Source: Leuconostoc palmae
GTDB taxonomy: Bacteria > Bacillota > Bacilli > Lactobacillales > Lactobacillaceae
Assembly: GCF_019656075.1 (NCBI RefSeq)
Contig: NZ_BPKZ01000008.1
Location: 1-64,000 of the forward strand
Direction of reading: 5' to 3'
Length of the DNA stretch: 64,000 nt
The notes below the pieces were generated by a model that was not told where the DNA came from, made no database searches, and saw nothing but the letters and a program-made list of their open reading frames with translations. Every line of letters begins with the position of its first letter. The stretch's first letter is position 1. The translations under genes were made by a program, and so were the position numbers. Positions 1,458 to 50,468 of this stretch are shown here, piece after piece.

Positions 1458-1510
1458 TAAATCTCACATATTCTTTAAAATGATTAACGTTAAGCATTTT
1501 AAATAAATTT

Positions 1511-2537
1511 GGTAAATTGCAAGAATTAACCGAACAATGCGAACTGCTGAAAAACCTTTCGTGGTGATTGCCAATTGAGTGTTTTCATTGGTCTTGCATT
1601 AATCCAATGATTAATTTGATCTAATTCTTTGGCGCTAACCGTCTCAATTTTTCGCTCCTTTGGTATAAATCGCCGAACGTATCGGTTTAATATCTCATTA
1701 CTCCCACGTTCTTCTGGTGAGTATGGGTGCGCAAAATAGACTGAAATGCCTAGCTTTTGCTCGATTTCATCATATTTTGCAAACTCTCGTCTTCGATCAA
1801 CAGTGATTGACTTAGCATTCTTGATTCCTTGAAAAAAACGAATTAAGACTGGTATCACTGCCTGACTATTGCGACCAATAACCTGCCTCACAATATGTTG
1901 CCGGCTTAATCTTTCTGTGATTGTGACAAGCACTTCACCACGTTTCTTACCCGATTGCATCGTATCAACTTCAAAGTGACCAAAATCCAGCCGTGCTTGA
2001 ACACTTTTGGGTCTTGATTCAATTGAACGACCGTGAACAAATACTTGACGTCTGCCATCAGACTGACGTTTTTGACGAATACCTTTGTCAGGTAAATCAG
2101 CTAATGACAGTTTGATTCGGCCAGCATTGAGCCAATTATAAATCGTTTTGAAAGGTAACCCTAAAACATGAGCAGCAGTTTCTGGTGACCACTTTAAAAT
2201 ATCAATGTGCTCATTCAAAAAGGCAGCGATAGCTGGTGTTAGTGTGTGATGACGACCACGTAGATGACGTTTTTTCAATGCCAACGCATGAGTAATATCC
2301 GCTTTATAGGGCGTAACTTGATGAATTTCAACAGAGACCGTCGCAGGTGATCGGTTAATAAAACGCGCAATGGCACGAACCGAATAATTTAATTCCAGCA
2401 AAGTTTGAATGACAGTACGTTCTTGAGATGATAAACTAGTCATGAGTCGCAGTTCCTTTATGGTTGTTTTGGATAATTACCATTAAAGGCGCTACGGCTT
2501 TTTTATTCAAGTGTTCGGTTTAATTTTACAATCTACC
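1511..2537 (-). mobile_element. IS30-family insertion sequence, left copy (IS1070-like)
   Basis: The ends are imperfect 26-bp inverted repeats: GGTAAATTGCAAGAATTAAC... on the left and the complement GGTAGATTGTAAAATTAAAC... on the right, matching at 21 of 26 positions. The boundaries are set by comparison with the second copy, beyond which the flanks diverge. The length of 1027 bp and single transposase gene resemble IS1070 of Leuconostoc lactis; that name is from memory and unchecked. By eye this copy differs from the right copy at three positions (2369, 2390, 2474). Confidence 0.9.
1526..2443 (-). CDS. IS30-family transposase (left copy)
   Basis: This 305-residue DDE transposase moves the surrounding IS. 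An N-terminal helix-turn-helix (about residues 4-35, ending RFINRSPATVSVEI) is followed by an RNase-H-like catalytic core: first Asp in FEVDTMQSGKKRGE, second in ITVDRRREFA, and the Glu in the SNEILNRY segment. The second-Asp motif is unusual, since IS30 proteins generally read closer to DNGKEF. The start is the ATG after AAAGGAA on the minus strand. The protein is identical to that of the right copy, so both elements look recent and intact. Confidence 0.93.
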   Translation of the reverse strand: MTSLSSQERTVIQTLLELNYSVRAIARFINRSPATVSVEIHQVTPYKADITHALALKKRHLRGRHHTLTPAIAAFLNEHIDILKWSPETAAHVLGLPFKTIYNWLNAGRIKLSLADLPDKGIRQKRQSDGRRQVFVHGRSIESRPKSVQARLDFGHFEVDTMQSGKKRGEVLVTITERLSRQHIVRQVIGRNSQAVIPVLIRFFQGIKNAKSITVDRRREFAKYDEIEQKLGISVYFAHPYSPEERGSNEILNRYVRRFIPKERKIETVSAKELDQINHWINARPMKTLNWQSPRKVFQQFALFG

Positions 2538-2600
2538 ATATTAAAAAACGCTAAAACACTAGATACGGCTATTGCATTGGGTGTTTGGGAAATAGAATAA
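2538..2600 (+). pseudogene. C-terminal remnant of an unknown gene cut by the left IS
   Basis: From the first base after the IS the frame stays open for 20 codons and ends in TAA, giving a tail that finishes TAIALGVWEIE. The stop lies 23 nt before the glycosyltransferase start, the spacing of an operon. I infer that this is the end of the gene that preceded the glycosyltransferase before the IS took its place. It is too short to identify and the open frame could be chance. Confidence 0.35.
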
Positions 2601-2623
2601 AAAATAAGTCTTTGGAGAGATAA

Positions 2624-4114
2624 ATGTTTAAGAAAATTGATTATAGTAATGCAGTAAGAAATGACGTTTTTCAAAATAATGTGCAAAAAAGAATTGTAGC
2701 AGTTCTTCCAGCTCATAATGAAAGAGACAGTATAAAAGATACTTTAGATAGCTTACGTAATTTGATAGTTCCTAGTGGGTTAGAGCTTGATTTGTTTGTT
2801 GCTTTGGATAATTGTACTGATGATACAGAAAACGTCTTAGAAAGCAATTCAGACGGCTTAAACGTATACTATTTAACAACTGTGGATAATAAGGAACGTA
2901 AAGTTGGTGCTTTAAATCAAATTTACCGTTTGTTCTTCGGTGATATGAGTGAAACAGCAGAACCTTTAGCAAAACAACACATTGAAGCAGTCAACAATAT
3001 TGTAGCCTATCTAGGAATTGACGCTGATATTTATTTAGAAAAGCACGCATTGACTATTTTGTACGATGAAATAAACGAAAAGCATAATATTGGTGGGGTT
3101 TCTGCTAATTATACTTGTTTACTTCCAGAGTCCAAAAAGAGACTACTAAAAGATGATCCGAACGCTGATGAAAAAATCAATTCTGGAAAGTTTGGCGGAT
3201 CAATAGCTAGATTTATAACCATGCAACAAAATAAAGCGTTTTCAGAGTCGACTATACAGCAAAAGCACGATGGACACCAAGCGACTATATTAGGCGGTCA
3301 AGCTACATTGTTTAGACCTGCAGCATTAAGAGAAGTTTATGATAAGTTGCGATTAAATGGTATCTATGATAACTCAACTGATACAGAAGACTTATTATTG
3401 ACACAGCAATTACGTTCATTAGGTTGGCAATGCAAGATTAGTCGTAAAGCACGCTGCTATGTAGATAGCATGAAAACAATGAAATCTTATTCAGCACAGG
3501 CTTTAAAGTGGCGTGTTGGTAAATTAGACTACATGACTAAAGCTGGCATTTCTACTGCTTACTCACGGTTTAGTTGGATTGAAGAGTTAACGCTTTGGTC
3601 TAATGGGATCACAAGAATTGCATTAATTGTTTTAATACCAGCTGCTATATTATTAGGAAACTTCACTTATAATTGGATATTCTTATTACCTATATTATTC
3701 AGTATGATTTTAAACACAATTGTAGCTATCAAGACACCTAAAAAGCGTTTTATTGATGTACTGCTATCAGCAACAACAATATCATCTGAATTTGCTGTCT
3801 GGTTTGATTTTATAACTGATATAAAATCATGGCGTGAAATATCAAAGATTGAACGCAAAGACACATGGGCTTCACAGTACCAAGCTGAAAGCGGTGTATC
3901 TTCAAAATTAAGCGCTGATTGGTTATCGATTATCGTTATTGCTTTGTTGGTTGGATTAGGTCTATATTTCAAAGTAATAACACTAAATTCTGCATTGCAG
4001 ACCATTAAACCATATATAAACAGCGGTTTTAACATTTTGATTTATCTGGTTATATTCAACACGGTGTTAATGGTTCGCAAATTATTTAAGATTAGAGGGG
4101 GATTTAAGGCGTGA
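2624..4114 (+). CDS. membrane GT2-family glycosyltransferase (transposon passenger)
   Basis: The 496-residue protein has a cytoplasmic GT-A domain (about residues 22-270) starting VAVLPAHNERDSI, with a nucleotide-sugar DxD (GIDADIYLE), an acceptor-site TEDLLLTQQLRS and a QALKW segment resembling the QxxRW signature of processive beta-glycan synthases. Four or more hydrophobic segments follow (about 330-350, 355-378, 435-455, 468-485). This fits an enzyme that makes and exports a polysaccharide, such as a glucan or GlcNAc polymer; the sugar cannot be read from sequence. A GGAGAG site precedes the ATG. It is the only complete gene between the two IS copies, so it is probably accessory and horizontally acquired. 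Both former neighbours appear cut. Confidence 0.8.
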   Translation: MFKKIDYSNAVRNDVFQNNVQKRIVAVLPAHNERDSIKDTLDSLRNLIVPSGLELDLFVALDNCTDDTENVLESNSDGLNVYYLTTVDNKERKVGALNQIYRLFFGDMSETAEPLAKQHIEAVNNIVAYLGIDADIYLEKHALTILYDEINEKHNIGGVSANYTCLLPESKKRLLKDDPNADEKINSGKFGGSIARFITMQQNKAFSESTIQQKHDGHQATILGGQATLFRPAALREVYDKLRLNGIYDNSTDTEDLLLTQQLRSLGWQCKISRKARCYVDSMKTMKSYSAQALKWRVGKLDYMTKAGISTAYSRFSWIEELTLWSNGITRIALIVLIPAAILLGNFTYNWIFLLPILFSMILNTIVAIKTPKKRFIDVLLSATTISSEFAVWFDFITDIKSWREISKIERKDTWASQYQAESGVSSKLSADWLSIIVIALLVGLGLYFKVITLNSALQTIKPYINSGFNILIYLVIFNTVLMVRKLFKIRGGFKA

Positions 4115-4124
4115 ACATTAAACA
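4111..4124 (+). pseudogene. start of an unknown gene cut by the right IS
   Basis: A GTG overlaps the glycosyltransferase stop as GTGA and is preceded by a strong AGAGGGGG about 10 nt upstream. Only the first codons (M-N-I-K) remain before the IS begins. The good ribosome binding site and 4-nt overlap suggest a translationally coupled second gene of the same operon, lost when the IS joined here. Nothing remains to identify it. Confidence 0.4.
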
Positions 4125-5151
4125 GGTAAATTGCAAGAATTAACCGAACAATGCGAACTGCTGAAAAACCTTTCGTGGTGATTGCCAATTGAGTGTTTTC
4201 ATTGGTCTTGCATTAATCCAATGATTAATTTGATCTAATTCTTTGGCGCTAACCGTCTCAATTTTTCGCTCCTTTGGTATAAATCGCCGAACGTATCGGT
4301 TTAATATCTCATTACTCCCACGTTCTTCTGGTGAGTATGGGTGCGCAAAATAGACTGAAATGCCTAGCTTTTGCTCGATTTCATCATATTTTGCAAACTC
4401 TCGTCTTCGATCAACAGTGATTGACTTAGCATTCTTGATTCCTTGAAAAAAACGAATTAAGACTGGTATCACTGCCTGACTATTGCGACCAATAACCTGC
4501 CTCACAATATGTTGCCGGCTTAATCTTTCTGTGATTGTGACAAGCACTTCACCACGTTTCTTACCCGATTGCATCGTATCAACTTCAAAGTGACCAAAAT
4601 CCAGCCGTGCTTGAACACTTTTGGGTCTTGATTCAATTGAACGACCGTGAACAAATACTTGACGTCTGCCATCAGACTGACGTTTTTGACGAATACCTTT
4701 GTCAGGTAAATCAGCTAATGACAGTTTGATTCGGCCAGCATTGAGCCAATTATAAATCGTTTTGAAAGGTAACCCTAAAACATGAGCAGCAGTTTCTGGT
4801 GACCACTTTAAAATATCAATGTGCTCATTCAAAAAGGCAGCGATAGCTGGTGTTAGTGTGTGATGACGACCACGTAGATGACGTTTTTTCAATGCCAACG
4901 CATGAGTAATATCCGCTTTATAGGGCGTAACTTGATGAATTTCAACAGAGACCGTCGCAGGTGATCGGTTAATAAAACGCGCGATGGCACGAACCGAATA
5001 ATTCAATTCCAGCAAAGTTTGAATGACAGTACGTTCTTGAGATGATAAACTAGTCATGAGTCGCAGTTCCTTTATGGTTGTTTTGGACAATTACCATTAA
5101 AGGCGCTACGGCTTTTTTATTCAAGTGTTCGGTTTAATTTTACAATCTACC
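4125..5151 (-). mobile_element. IS30-family insertion sequence, right copy (IS1070-like)
   Basis: This is the second 1027-bp copy, in the same orientation as the left one and almost identical. It has the same 26-bp imperfect terminal inverted repeats. A T-to-C change near the outer transposase end creates a TTG in frame upstream of the normal start. Its right flank (ATTT) matches the left flank of the other copy. Confidence 0.9.
4140..5057 (-). CDS. IS30-family transposase (right copy)
   Basis: This 305-residue transposase is identical to the left copy, with the same helix-turn-helix and DDE core; the two coding-region base differences are silent. A longer 316-residue frame can be read from a TTG at 5088-5090. 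I chose the ATG at 5057 because it has the AAAGGAA ribosome binding site and because the left copy has TTA instead of TTG, so the extension cannot be general. With two intact copies, either end or the whole composite could be mobile. Confidence 0.93.
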   Translation of the reverse strand: MTSLSSQERTVIQTLLELNYSVRAIARFINRSPATVSVEIHQVTPYKADITHALALKKRHLRGRHHTLTPAIAAFLNEHIDILKWSPETAAHVLGLPFKTIYNWLNAGRIKLSLADLPDKGIRQKRQSDGRRQVFVHGRSIESRPKSVQARLDFGHFEVDTMQSGKKRGEVLVTITERLSRQHIVRQVIGRNSQAVIPVLIRFFQGIKNAKSITVDRRREFAKYDEIEQKLGISVYFAHPYSPEERGSNEILNRYVRRFIPKERKIETVSAKELDQINHWINARPMKTLNWQSPRKVFQQFALFG

Positions 5152-10588: not shown

Positions 10589-11305
10589 TTATGTGATTAA
10601 ATAAATATGATCGTCTATGGTATCAAATGAATGATAATTTTTGTTGAGTAATTCATTTTTGTTTAGTTTTGCTGATTGCCAAAATTGAGAAGAGTTAGTG
10701 TGACCAAATGGTTCACCAATAACAATGAAATCTCCAGAAAATTCGTGTTTTTTTAAATAGTTTAAAATACTGAAGTCATCATCATTAGTGTCAGGTGCCC
10801 AACTCATGATGATCACATCATACTGATATTTTTTGAGTGCCATAAGTGCCTCTTCTTGAATAACATTAGTCCATAAATTAGGGGCATTCACATCTTGACA
10901 CTGCCATTTGAAGTTATCAATAGCAGTTATAGGACAGCCTAATTGACGAAGACCAGCTGAAATAAGACCATTCCCCGCCATAATTTCAAGGGTACGACGA
11001 TTATTAATAAATTGTTTGAGGTCGTGAAGCCATAAATAATTTGGTACAAACCATACGCCAAATTCGGTAATGAGCAGTTGACGAAATTCTGATAATAAGT
11101 CATCTAAAGCCATTAATCTTGTATCAGCTAAAATCTGTTTTTCAGTGAAAAATAGATGATCTATTTTTTTGTTGGGTATACTATGTTGAGATAATCTATT
11201 GATAACAATTAAAGCATCATTGATCTTCTGCAGTGCATATTTGTTATCAGAGAGGGTAATCAAAAATTGTGTCAGTTTGTTTTGGAATGCTATTAGAGAA
11301 GACAT
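10589..11305 (-). CDS. SAM-dependent methyltransferase of unknown target
   Basis: The 238-residue protein has an N-terminal helical region (about residues 1-105) and a Rossmann methyltransferase core. Motif I is LEIMAGNGLISAGLRQLG (about 110-127), with an acidic residue at the end of strand 2 (ITAIDN) and a motif IV-like IIMSWAPDTNDD (about 165-176). The target is not evident. The ATG follows AAGGAA on the minus strand. The gene is single and convergent to apt, and I do not recognise it as any named enzyme. Confidence 0.7.
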   Translation of the reverse strand: MSSLIAFQNKLTQFLITLSDNKYALQKINDALIVINRLSQHSIPNKKIDHLFFTEKQILADTRLMALDDLLSEFRQLLITEFGVWFVPNYLWLHDLKQFINNRRTLEIMAGNGLISAGLRQLGCPITAIDNFKWQCQDVNAPNLWTNVIQEEALMALKKYQYDVIIMSWAPDTNDDDFSILNYLKKHEFSGDFIVIGEPFGHTNSSQFWQSAKLNKNELLNKNYHSFDTIDDHIYLIT

Positions 11306-13925: not shown

Positions 13926-15287
13926 ATGATTGATAAAAATGAACAGTTGAATCAAACCATTCAACATCTATCAGATCTTATTCAGTCTGGACAAGACCAA
14001 GCTTTCACGGAAATTTTTGAAGCATTACACGAATTTGAAATGGCACAAGTTTATGTTGAATTGCCTGAACAATTTCGCAGTGTCGCATGGCGATTATTAT
14101 CAAATGATGTACTAGCAAGTGTTTTTGACAATTTAGACGTTGATGAAGTAGATATTGTTGCCTTGATACAAGAATTACCACCCAAACGAGGTGCTAGTAT
14201 TTTACAAGAAATGTATGCCGATAATGCTGCCGATGCTTTACAAGAAATGTCCCCCAGACTTGTCGCGACGTACTTGAGTTTGATGCCTAAATCTGAAGCT
14301 GATGCTGTTCGTAAATTGATTAACTATGAAGAGCAGACTGCGGGATCATTAATGTCAACGGAGTATTTAGGTGTTGAACAAAATCTCCATGTAGATGATG
14401 TGATGCGTTTAGTCAAAAAACAAGCACTTGAGGCTGAATCTATTAGTTATGTCTATGTTTTAGATAAGCAAGAACATTTAATGGGTGTTATTTCTTTAAG
14501 AGATTTGTTAACACATCCAGATGATTTGCCAGTTATTGACATTACAAACGAACGTATTATTAGCGTAAAAGCTGGGGATGATCAAGCCGATGTCGCTCAG
14601 ATTGTTGCAGATTATAATTTCTTATCGATACCTGTTACAGATGATAATAACCGTTTATTAGGTGTGATCACTGTTGATGATATTGTTGATGTTATTGACG
14701 AGGAAGCAGTAGAAGATTATTCTGGATTGGCTGCCGTTAACGTTAGTCAGATTAATGATTCACCGTGGCACTCAGCTATTAAACGTATTCCATGGTTAAT
14801 TGCATTGTTGCTATTGGGGATGACAACGGCTACTTTAATTAGTTCTTATGATGGTCTCGTAAGAAAAGCTTCCATTTTAGCTGCATTCATATCACTGATC
14901 ACTGGAACTGCTGGTAACGCGGGAACACAAGCCTTAGCCTTAGCGGTTCGTAGATTAGCTGTTGGAAGCGATAAAAATGGCTGGCGAAATTTTTTCAGTG
15001 AGGTCATCGCGGGTATTTTAGTGGGTCTAGCTACTGGTATCTCTGTTTTCTCAGTTGTCGCATTATGGAAACAAAATTTAATGTTAGGTATTGCGGTTGG
15101 GTTAGCCATGACAATTGCTATTATTGTAGCCAACCTAGCAGGATATTTAATTCCGGTCGTGATTGATAAAATTGGATTTGATCCTGCGGTAGCGAGTGGA
15201 CCGTTTATTACGACTTTATCTGATCTAACCTCGGTATTGATTTATTTTAATGTTGCGCAATTGTTTATCACTCATTTTATTGGTTAA
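13926..15287 (+). CDS. mgtE: magnesium transporter MgtE
   Basis: MgtE is a gated Mg2+ channel. The protein has an N-terminal helical MgtE-N domain (about residues 10-125), two CBS domains (about 130-250) and five C-terminal membrane helices starting near WLIALLLLGM, with the GTAGNAGTQ segment of the pore. The frame opens at 13905 and has ATGs at 13914 and 13926. A run of seven Gs (13907-13913) is the only ribosome binding site candidate, so I prefer 13926 (453 residues). It is the fourth gene of the relQ operon. Confidence 0.93.
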   Translation: MIDKNEQLNQTIQHLSDLIQSGQDQAFTEIFEALHEFEMAQVYVELPEQFRSVAWRLLSNDVLASVFDNLDVDEVDIVALIQELPPKRGASILQEMYADNAADALQEMSPRLVATYLSLMPKSEADAVRKLINYEEQTAGSLMSTEYLGVEQNLHVDDVMRLVKKQALEAESISYVYVLDKQEHLMGVISLRDLLTHPDDLPVIDITNERIISVKAGDDQADVAQIVADYNFLSIPVTDDNNRLLGVITVDDIVDVIDEEAVEDYSGLAAVNVSQINDSPWHSAIKRIPWLIALLLLGMTTATLISSYDGLVRKASILAAFISLITGTAGNAGTQALALAVRRLAVGSDKNGWRNFFSEVIAGILVGLATGISVFSVVALWKQNLMLGIAVGLAMTIAIIVANLAGYLIPVVIDKIGFDPAVASGPFITTLSDLTSVLIYFNVAQLFITHFIG

Positions 15288-15292
15288 ATAAA

Positions 15293-15322
15293 TCAACAGT
15301 GAGCAAAATAAAATGTTATGAT
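15293..15322 (+). promoter_or_regulatory. promoter of the LCP gene
   Basis: TCAACA (15293-15298), an 18-bp spacer and TATGAT (15317-15322) precede the AGAGG ribosome binding site of the LCP gene. Confidence 0.4.
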
Positions 15323-15354
15323 AATAAAAGTTGAATAAGGATAGAGGTAATATA

Positions 15355-16338
15355 ATGGCTTCAAGAGAAGATTTACACCGCCATAACAAATAACCGAAGC
15401 AACGTAAAAAGCATCCGATTCGTGTGACCATTTTAGTATTAATTGGATTGTTAGCATGCGCTGGTGTTGCAACAGCATCTTATGGTTATTATAAAATGAA
15501 TCGTACCATAAGTAAGATGCAAAAAACTTCTGCAATGACTAAGAAGGTAGATAAAATCACTGCTTCTAAATCACCTGTATCATATTTATTGTTAGGTACA
15601 GATACTGGTGATTTAGGTCGTGATTATAAGGGTCGTACAGATACAATGATGATTATAACGATCAACCCTGATAAGAAAACAACGACTATGACATCTGTTG
15701 CTCGAGACACATTAGTTACAGTCAATGGACAGCAAATGAAGATCAATGCTGCTTATGCTTATGGCAATGCAGACTCTGCTATGGAAGCAGTTGAAAATCT
15801 ATTGAATGTTAAGATTAACGGTGGTTATGTATTAGCAAACATGGGTGGGCTAATTAAAATGGTTGATGCCGTTGGTGGTGTTGATGTCGTGTCGCCATTA
15901 ACATTTACAACAGAAGGTGATGATACACAAGCTGACTCTAAAAGCCAGTACAGTTTTTTCAAAGGGCAAACTTACCATATGGATGGTAGTGAGGCTTTGG
16001 CATTTTCAAGAATGCGCCATGAAGATCCTGATGGTGATTATGGACGTCAAAGGCGTCAACAATTGATCATTCAAGCTGTTCTAAAGCATTCTGCTAGTGT
16101 TGGGACGCTATTTAATGACACGTTATTAAATACTTTGTCGAACAACATTCAAACAGATGTTTCAACTAGTTCAATGAAAAACTTGGCGCTTAATTACCGT
16201 GATGCGTTCGGAAATGTGAAGCAAGATCAATTACATGGAACAACGCAAGATATGGGAGATTTAGGTTCTGTTGAAGTTATGAGTCAATCTGAAATCAATC
16301 GTGTGCATAATGCAATAACAGATGAAATGTCAAAGTAA
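15355..16338 (+). pseudogene. LytR-CpsA-Psr family ligase with premature stop at codon 13
   Basis: LCP proteins attach teichoic acid or capsule polymers to peptidoglycan outside the cell. The natural start appears to be the ATG at 15355, 7 nt after AGAGG. Codon 13 (15391-15393) is TAA, after which the same frame continues P-K-Q-R-K-K-H-P-I-R into the membrane anchor and LCP domain. The anchor is followed by the conserved LLLGTD, GRTDTMMI, SVARDT, AFSRMRHEDPDGDYGR and RRQQLI segments, all intact. The change is probably CAA to TAA. A GTG at 15424 could restart a 304-residue protein lacking the basic cytoplasmic tail, but no ribosome binding site precedes it. The gene may be inactive, poorly expressed, or a sequencing error. 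Confidence 0.75.
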
Positions 16339-16371
16339 AAAGATAACATTTAGATGTTATCTTTTTATTTG
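16337..16371 (+). terminator. terminator after the LCP gene
   Basis: A 13-bp stem AAAAAGATAACAT-TTAG-ATGTTATCTTTTT begins at the stop codon and ends in a T-rich tract. Confidence 0.9.
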
Positions 16372-16431
16372 CAAAAATATACATTAAAATAAGTTATATA
16401 CAGTAAAAAAGCGTATATAAACACTATATTA

Positions 16432-16467
16432 TTGAATAAATAGTCATCAGATTGTATTATAAATGCA
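16432..16467 (+). promoter_or_regulatory. argG promoter overlapped by ArgR-type boxes
   Basis: TTGAAT (16432-16437), a 17-bp spacer and TATTAT (16455-16460) form a good promoter. TGAATAAATAGTCA (16433-16446) matches the ARG-box consensus TGAATWWWWATTCA at all but one position and covers the -35. A second, weaker dyad, TGTATTATAAATGCA (16453-16467), covers the -10. ArgR/AhrC with arginine bound would block transcription here. Confidence 0.6.
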
Positions 16468-16496
16468 TAGACAAACAGGTAACGGAGGTTGATAAC

Positions 16497-17726
16497 ATGA
16501 CAGAAAAATTAGTACTAGCTTATTCAGGTGGACTAGATACATCAGTAGCAATTCCTTGGTTAAAAGATAAAGGGTATGATGTGATAGCAGTTGTTCTTGA
16601 TGTTGGGCAGCACGGTAAGGATATGAAAGCCATTCAGGATAAAGCACTCAAAGTAGGTGCTAGTCAATCGATTGTTATTGATGCTAAAGCAGAATTTGCT
16701 GAACAATATGTTGCACCAGTGATTAAGGCAAATATGATGTATGAAGGTGAGTATCCAATGGTATCTGCGTTATCGCGTCCTTTGATCATAAAAAAATTAG
16801 TTGACATCGCACACGAAAACGAAGCTGTAGCAATTGCACATGGATCAACAGGGCATGGTAATGATCAAGTACGATTTGAAGCAGCAATACATGCCTTAGA
16901 TCCTGAAATGAAAATTGAAGCACCTATTCGTGATTTCCAATGGTCTCGTGAAGAAGAAATTGAATATGCACACACGCATGATGTTCCAGTGCCAATAGAT
17001 CTTGACTCACCTTATTCTATTGATGAAAACCTTTGGGGTCGTGCTAATGAAGCAGGTATTTTGGAAAACCCTTGGAACCAAGCACCTGAAGAAGCTTATG
17101 CTATAACAACAGCTATTGAAAATACACCAGATGATCCATCATTTGTTGATGTAACGTATAGTAAGGGAGTACCAGTAGCCTTAGACGGCGAAGAGATGTC
17201 ATTGGCCGATCTTATTATTAAAATGAATATGATTGCTGGTTCACACGGTATTGGACGTATTGACCATATTGAAAATCGTCTAGTAGGAATTAAATCACGT
17301 GAAATATATGAAGCACCAGCAGCTGCTGTCTTAATGACCGCTCATAAAGATCTGGAAGATTTGACACTCGAACGGGATGTTGCTCATTTTAAGCCTATGA
17401 TAGAACAACAACTAGCTAATCTTGTTTATGAAGCAAAATGGGTTTCACCATTATTTGATAGTCTAATGGCGTTTATTGACGACACACAAAAGAATGTTAA
17501 TGGTGTGGTCAAAATGAAATTATTTAAAGGAAATGCAATTGCAGTTGCGCGTCAGTCAGACAATAACTCATTATATGATGAAGATTTAGCAACTTATACT
17601 AGTTCATCATCATTTGATCAAGAAGCAGCAGTTGGATTTATTAAATTATGGACATTAAGCAATACAGTTTACGAACAAGTGAACCATGTGCATAGTCAAA
17701 AACCAGTCAAAAAAGTTAATATATGA
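16497..17726 (+). CDS. argG: argininosuccinate synthase
   Basis: ArgG joins citrulline and aspartate with ATP to give argininosuccinate. The 409-residue protein opens with the PP-loop [16 protein letters not shown] (about residues 6-21) and has [13 protein letters not shown] (about 117-129). I start at the ATG 8 nt after CGGAGG; an upstream ATG in frame at 16452 lies before that ribosome binding site. It leads argG-argH-argF and is preceded by an ArgR-type operator. Confidence 0.97.
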
Positions 17727-50413: not shown

Positions 50414-50468
50414 AAAGTATAAATGTTAAAATAAATAAGTAGTTAGTTGTGACTGTATCAAATTAATT

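Follow-up and report, generated by a model that had tools for sequence, protein, structure and literature searches.

A probable recent nonsense mutation at codon 13 of a conserved LCP gene in Leuconostoc palmae

We report that a gene of the LCP (LytR-CpsA-Psr) family, predicted to encode an ordinary LCP glycopolymer-peptidoglycan ligase, carries an in-frame stop at codon 13 in a 64,000-nucleotide stretch of the Leuconostoc palmae genome (the window). The explanation that we favor, with a probability of roughly 0.8, is a recent loss-of-function nonsense mutation, arisen in the lineage or the strain of this genome, in an LCP gene that is otherwise intact.

Results

An LCP gene interrupted after 12 codons

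The ATG at 15355-15357 (plus strand) opens a frame that meets a TAA at 15391-15393, its codon 13, and that continues after this TAA without a stop until the TAA at 16336-16338 (Table 1). A preliminary description had proposed this arrangement, in which a ribosome binding site and the ATG lead into an interrupted LCP frame that is open thereafter, and both the sequence and the profile match (see below) confirm it. The 12 codons ahead of the stop (MASREDLHRHNK) align with M-TRESLHRQGK, the start of the intact L. citreum gene; since these codons align with intact gene starts in relatives, chance is not the issue. The gene is located between mgtE (PF01769) and a gene that we take, by its sequence, to be argG, and the order is the same in two relatives (G004 and G003). 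The promoter match ahead of the gene is no evidence in itself, because the region holds 5 such sites compared to a mean of 7.3 in shuffled sequences. At the other end, an AT-rich hairpin followed by a T run (window positions 16333-16370, seen as a self-complementary match) lies around and after the LCP stop codon and is likely a terminator, though it is absent from the list of the terminator scan.

Table 1. Coordinates of the parts of the LCP locus (window positions) and of the places flagged in the ORF comparison
Feature	Position	Strand	Basis or remark
Weak sigma-70-like promoter match (TCAACA, 18 nt, TATGAT, TG ahead)	15293..15322	+	gap after mgtE
Shine-Dalgarno AGAGG of the conserved start	15343..15347	+	read in sequence; duplex -10.1 kcal/mol
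LCP gene codons 1-12, MASREDLHRHNK, homologous to intact gene starts	15355..15390	+	translation, alignment
In-frame TAA, codon 13; aligned codon Gln in 10/18 other Leuconostoc, stop in 0/18	15391..15393	+
Remaining basic cytoplasmic tail PKQRKKHPIR, in frame, still basic	15394..15423	+	translation, alignment, charge
GTG, first possible in-frame restart	15424..15426	+	weak ribosome site; start codon at this column in 0/18 relatives
Membrane anchor VTILVLIGLLACAGVATAS	15424..15480	+	hydropathy
LCP catalytic domain, uninterrupted	15634..16092	+	PF03816
LCP gene past the TAA, open up to its own stop codon	15394..16338	+	ORF list, translation
Flagged, stop upstream of shared Met	G004 50456; G003 17764, 21730, 34355, 52786; G006 7030		
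Flagged, stop at very end of protein	G006 6371, 28636		
Flagged, ORF cut by window end	G004 63833		
Flagged, short fragment	G006 11045		
Flagged, reverse-strand ORF	G003 52015		

The catalytic domain that defines the LCP family was found with an E value of 2.6e-42 and 145 bits (cut-off, 24.6), the match to PF03816 covering profile positions 1-148 of 150. A hydrophobic stretch of 19 residues provides the anchor, and we infer a topology in which the domain lies outside. Taken from the GTG, the protein scored 205.5 of 441 bits for the NCBIfam entry TagU and 205.8 of 450 bits for LytR; because both scores are under the equivalog cut-offs, we file the protein only as a member of the LCP family. Its best solved relatives are 8qty (named a "biofilm regulatory protein"), 3okz, and 9cy9 ("biofilm regulatory protein A"), TagU (6uf6) standing further down the list. 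In the anchor, window positions 15445-15465 read GLLACAG, with a Cys that is absent in 19 aligned relatives; its setting is loosely lipobox-like, and the Cys is probably there by chance. Among the literature matches listed, none, judged by its title or the start of its abstract, deals with this LCP gene in Leuconostoc.

The frame is open in other Leuconostoc genomes

Each of the 18 other Leuconostoc genomes searched (one genome per species, and not independent of each other) has the LCP gene, with 72-81% identity and no internal stop, and each of these genes can be read without interruption from an ATG that aligns with 15355. The same holds for the aligned ATG of G025, which belongs to another genus of the family. 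Starts were taken as the first ATG after a stop, a rule that for L016, L017, and L018 places the start upstream of the likely one. The closest match is the gene of L. citreum, at about 81-82% identity, and the genome is placed near this species within Leuconostoc. A scan of named genome contigs with the LCP gene gave ten loci, seven of them from Leuconostoc, and no relative was found in the viral contigs scanned.

At the position aligned with codon 13, the other Leuconostoc genomes have Gln in 10 cases, another residue in 8 and a stop in none, in a column that is uncertain because the length of the tail varies among relatives (it is some 5 codons shorter in 6 of the 18, L025-L030). Three of the eight genomes without Gln in this column (L024, L031, and L032) have one two codons further on, in a Lys-Gln-Pro-Lys context like that of the window, and in L031 and L032 only two differences separate the 12 bases of this context from those of the window. 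A Gln codon would be the most economical ancestor of the TAA. The proposal made at the outset, a single change from a Gln codon to TAA in an otherwise intact gene, is thus supported by the open frame in 18/18 genomes and by Gln in 10/18, and the observations named at that time as speaking against it, a conserved TAA or homologues starting at the column of the GTG at 15424, were each made in 0/18. L033, from another genus, was excluded from the counts at codon 13 and at the GTG column and from the invariant positions used below.

Constraint on the gene and age of the lesion

Synonymous sites have reached saturation within the genus (pS about 0.65-0.80), and age was therefore gauged not by dN/dS but by departures at positions that do not vary among the other 18 genomes. 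The window gene departs at 4 of 157 such positions, and so do the L. citreum gene and L027 when each is considered in its own turn. Changes unique to one lineage number 26 in the window's LCP gene and 24 in that of L. citreum, a ratio lower than that of the unique amino acid changes over all 52 genes compared (1379 in the window lineage versus 906 in L. citreum; window positions 165-63811). In a neutral simulation (400 runs per step, without indels, all four departures being counted as having arisen after the death of the gene), the joint probability of so few departures and no new stop was 0.55, 0.138, 0.010, and 0.000 at 1, 2, 3, and 5% divergence. Since no loss of constraint is apparent elsewhere in the gene, the lesion would be recent, under about 3% neutral divergence. 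By these comparisons, the LCP gene appears to have been constrained until very recently, or to be constrained still: very recent death and no death look alike in this test, and the absence of a second lesion fits equally well a gene that is still used by some unseen route. Two marks of a recent pseudogene were found here, namely, a frame that is intact from the same start in relatives and few or no further lesions.

Other genes of the window

The genome (1.39 Mb in 28 contigs, listed as 99.59% complete with 0.12% contamination) is the smallest of the 19 searched from Leuconostoc, a food-type lactic acid bacterium. ORFs of G004, the nearest genome, matched the window at 55 places, 3 of which were flagged; the corresponding numbers were 49 and 6 for G003 and 54 and 5 for G006. 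Flags other than that of the LCP gene were judged by reading the alignments (Table 1), and in all three comparisons the LCP gene alone was judged to be truly stopped internally; with G004, it is the only one with a stop inside the homologous protein, and the stop behind the flag at 50456 lies upstream of a start shared with G003. In the reverse check, 57 window proteins (with ATG starts, the LCP gene being taken from a later ATG) were compared to the stretches of G004, G003, and G006, where 54, 51, and 53 were matched and 0, 3, and 2 were flagged. Of these flags, two come from transposases matched in part, one from a gene that runs off the end of a stretch, one from an N-terminal extension that contains a stop, and one from the window gene 10589-11305, which is covered over two thirds of its length in G006 and whose homologue there may be broken or divergent.

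As only one gene in some 55 is broken, its presence is nothing unusual. A decaying stretch of the genome was rejected as an explanation, no other window gene having been judged broken, and so was hypermutation through loss of mismatch repair, as mutS and mutL are both present, with matches over their cut-offs and no internal stop.

Elsewhere in the window, at 1490-5094, we observed two copies of an insertion sequence, 100% identical over 970 bases and encoding a 305-aa HTH_38/rve transposase, which we take to be IS30-like. They flank a gene for a 496-aa family-2 glycosyltransferase (2624-4114), which was unmatched in the compared stretches of the three relatives, and no further copy is listed in the assembly. 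The region looks like a composite transposon with a surface-glycan gene.

Paralogues and a deletion next to trpS

A search with PF03816 gave 3 LCP genes in this genome; the 18 other Leuconostoc genomes have 3 or 4 apiece. Three classes of LCP genes are common to all 18, and the window gene belongs to one of them; the reading frames of the two other LCP genes of this genome are open. In a tree drawn for a selection of the LCP genes (30 rows, 9 genomes), the three proteins of this genome join three different groups, and none joins the trpS-side LCP genes, which form two neighboring groups there, that of G004 having been missed by the motif filter. A trpS-side LCP gene was found in 18/18 of the other genomes with 70-81% identity to the query from G004, G004 itself included, and the fragmented genome G018 carries it in two pieces. 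In this genome, the query reaches no more than 52%, with a gene of another class, one that gives a single match of 47-54% in each of the 18.

In this genome, trpS directly adjoins a gene that we presume to be permease-like, inside a contig (G000:C7:87302-87645, equivalent to L129 4303-4646). In G004, four ORFs including the LCP gene lie between these two, and neither these ORFs nor any LCP remnant was found in 10 kb here. The four-ORF block is cleanly deleted in this genome. If the window gene is off as well, two LCP genes therefore remain, a smaller number than any of the 18 other genomes has.

With the PF03808 profile, a TagA-family gene was found in none of the 19 Leuconostoc genomes and in 7 of 14 control genomes, and the TagO-TagA linkage route was accordingly unseen in these 19. 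Because this gene is absent from them, the polymer attached by the LCP proteins would not obviously be classic wall teichoic acid.

Alternative explanations

The protein might still be made from the GTG at 15424, or from another internal start, once reading of the 12 codons ends: the GTG is in frame, 30 bases past the stop, with a complete frame from there on. With a presumed sequence of the 16S tail, the predicted duplex is strong at 15355 (ATG), with -10.1 kcal/mol, and very weak at 15424 (GTG), with -0.7 kcal/mol; for 30 hand-picked conserved plus-strand starts of the window, the median is -6.5 kcal/mol. Sites this weak are sometimes used, as 2 of these 30 (25316 and 43352) are weaker still, but a start codon stands at the GTG column in none of the 18 relatives. 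The charges also argue against such a start: ahead of the anchor, the net charge is 0 in the GTG product, compared to +6 when the full frame is read through the stop as X and +4 to +11 in the relatives (n = 19, a few of which were counted from an ATG that precedes the likely start); the first 15 residues beyond the anchor carry +4 in the GTG product. Since the positive-inside rule governs the orientation of membrane proteins, this pattern would favor wrong insertion. The restart at the GTG, an option in the preliminary description, thus gained no support, its ribosome site being weak and the basic tail being lost, and we rejected this start for its weak site, its lack of conservation, and its wrong charge pattern; production from any internal start appears very unlikely. 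Even less probable, to the point of being hardly credible, is a phase-variable switch or a read-through that is programmed or aided by a suppressor. In favor of this, the residues following the TAA keep their basic character and resemble in kind the tail of the relatives, but the relatives have no stop there (0/18). No stop-reading anticodon was found among 48 tRNA matches, all of them typed, and a suppressor tRNA was rejected on this ground. An RNA element at the stop was rejected as well, as there is no Rfam match in 14900-17000 and the RNA after the TAA is no more stable than shuffled sequences (z, 0.58). The repeat tract or invertible element that marks phase-variable genes was not seen at the site: no direct repeat of at least 8 bases exists in 15280-15480, where inspection by eye shows a recurrence of ATAAC alone (5 bases, at 15383 and 15390), and the single inverted repeat of this region, a short palindrome, lies at 15462-15477, beyond the TAA. 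The repeat-driven switch considered earlier was therefore abandoned.

The main rival to a nonsense mutation in the lineage is an error of sequencing or of the consensus, or a mutation confined to the sequenced culture. It would account for the LCP gene being the only one judged broken among 55 orthologous places and for the absence of any other decay in the gene. The assembly is otherwise clean, however, with one lesion in 55 places and with the completeness and contamination values given above, and the lesion would be a substitution and not an indel; substitution errors, unlike indels, are uncommon in assembled contigs. We consider this rival unlikely, though less so than the two preceding ones.

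Discussion

With a nonsense mutation as the preferred explanation, ribosomes would load at the conserved ATG, make a peptide of 12 residues, and stop. Little or no anchored enzyme would be made, because there is no good restart ahead of the membrane anchor, and the cell would presumably live on its two other LCP genes. We infer that the cells truly carry this base, that translation ends at the TAA, and that the paralogues cover the function. Such a mutation is ordinary gene decay, slightly more notable with a second LCP gene already deleted.

One deletion and one unconfirmed stop are the basis for suggesting that this lineage is losing LCP genes more widely. We tentatively raise the idea, which we think more doubtful than probable, that the lineage sheds its wall-glycopolymer ligases one by one, two LCP genes carrying all of the attachment, perhaps because the polymer or its phage and host partners have changed. 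A passage of a published account describes the LCP genes of Staphylococcus aureus as partly redundant (PMC7831098). Where several LCP genes exist, a nonsense allele in one of them amounts to a natural knock-out. If real and fixed, it would mean that Leuconostoc can dispense with this conserved LCP gene when another one has already been lost, and it would bear on the redundancy of LCP ligases in a genus in which no TagA-family gene was found. If confined to the sequenced culture, it would matter for annotation only.

An N-terminal membrane anchor precedes the catalytic domain in the LCP family, as stated in a passage of the same source (PMC7831098). The window gene resembles TagT, TagU, and TagV of Bacillus subtilis and LcpA, LcpB, and LcpC of S. 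aureus in its N-terminal anchor and uninterrupted LCP domain and differs from them in having its frame cut at codon 13. From a young single-nonsense pseudogene with paralogues it does not differ in sequence: it shares with such a pseudogene the conserved start and ribosome site, the one stop, the intact remainder, the absence of further decay, and the open paralogues.
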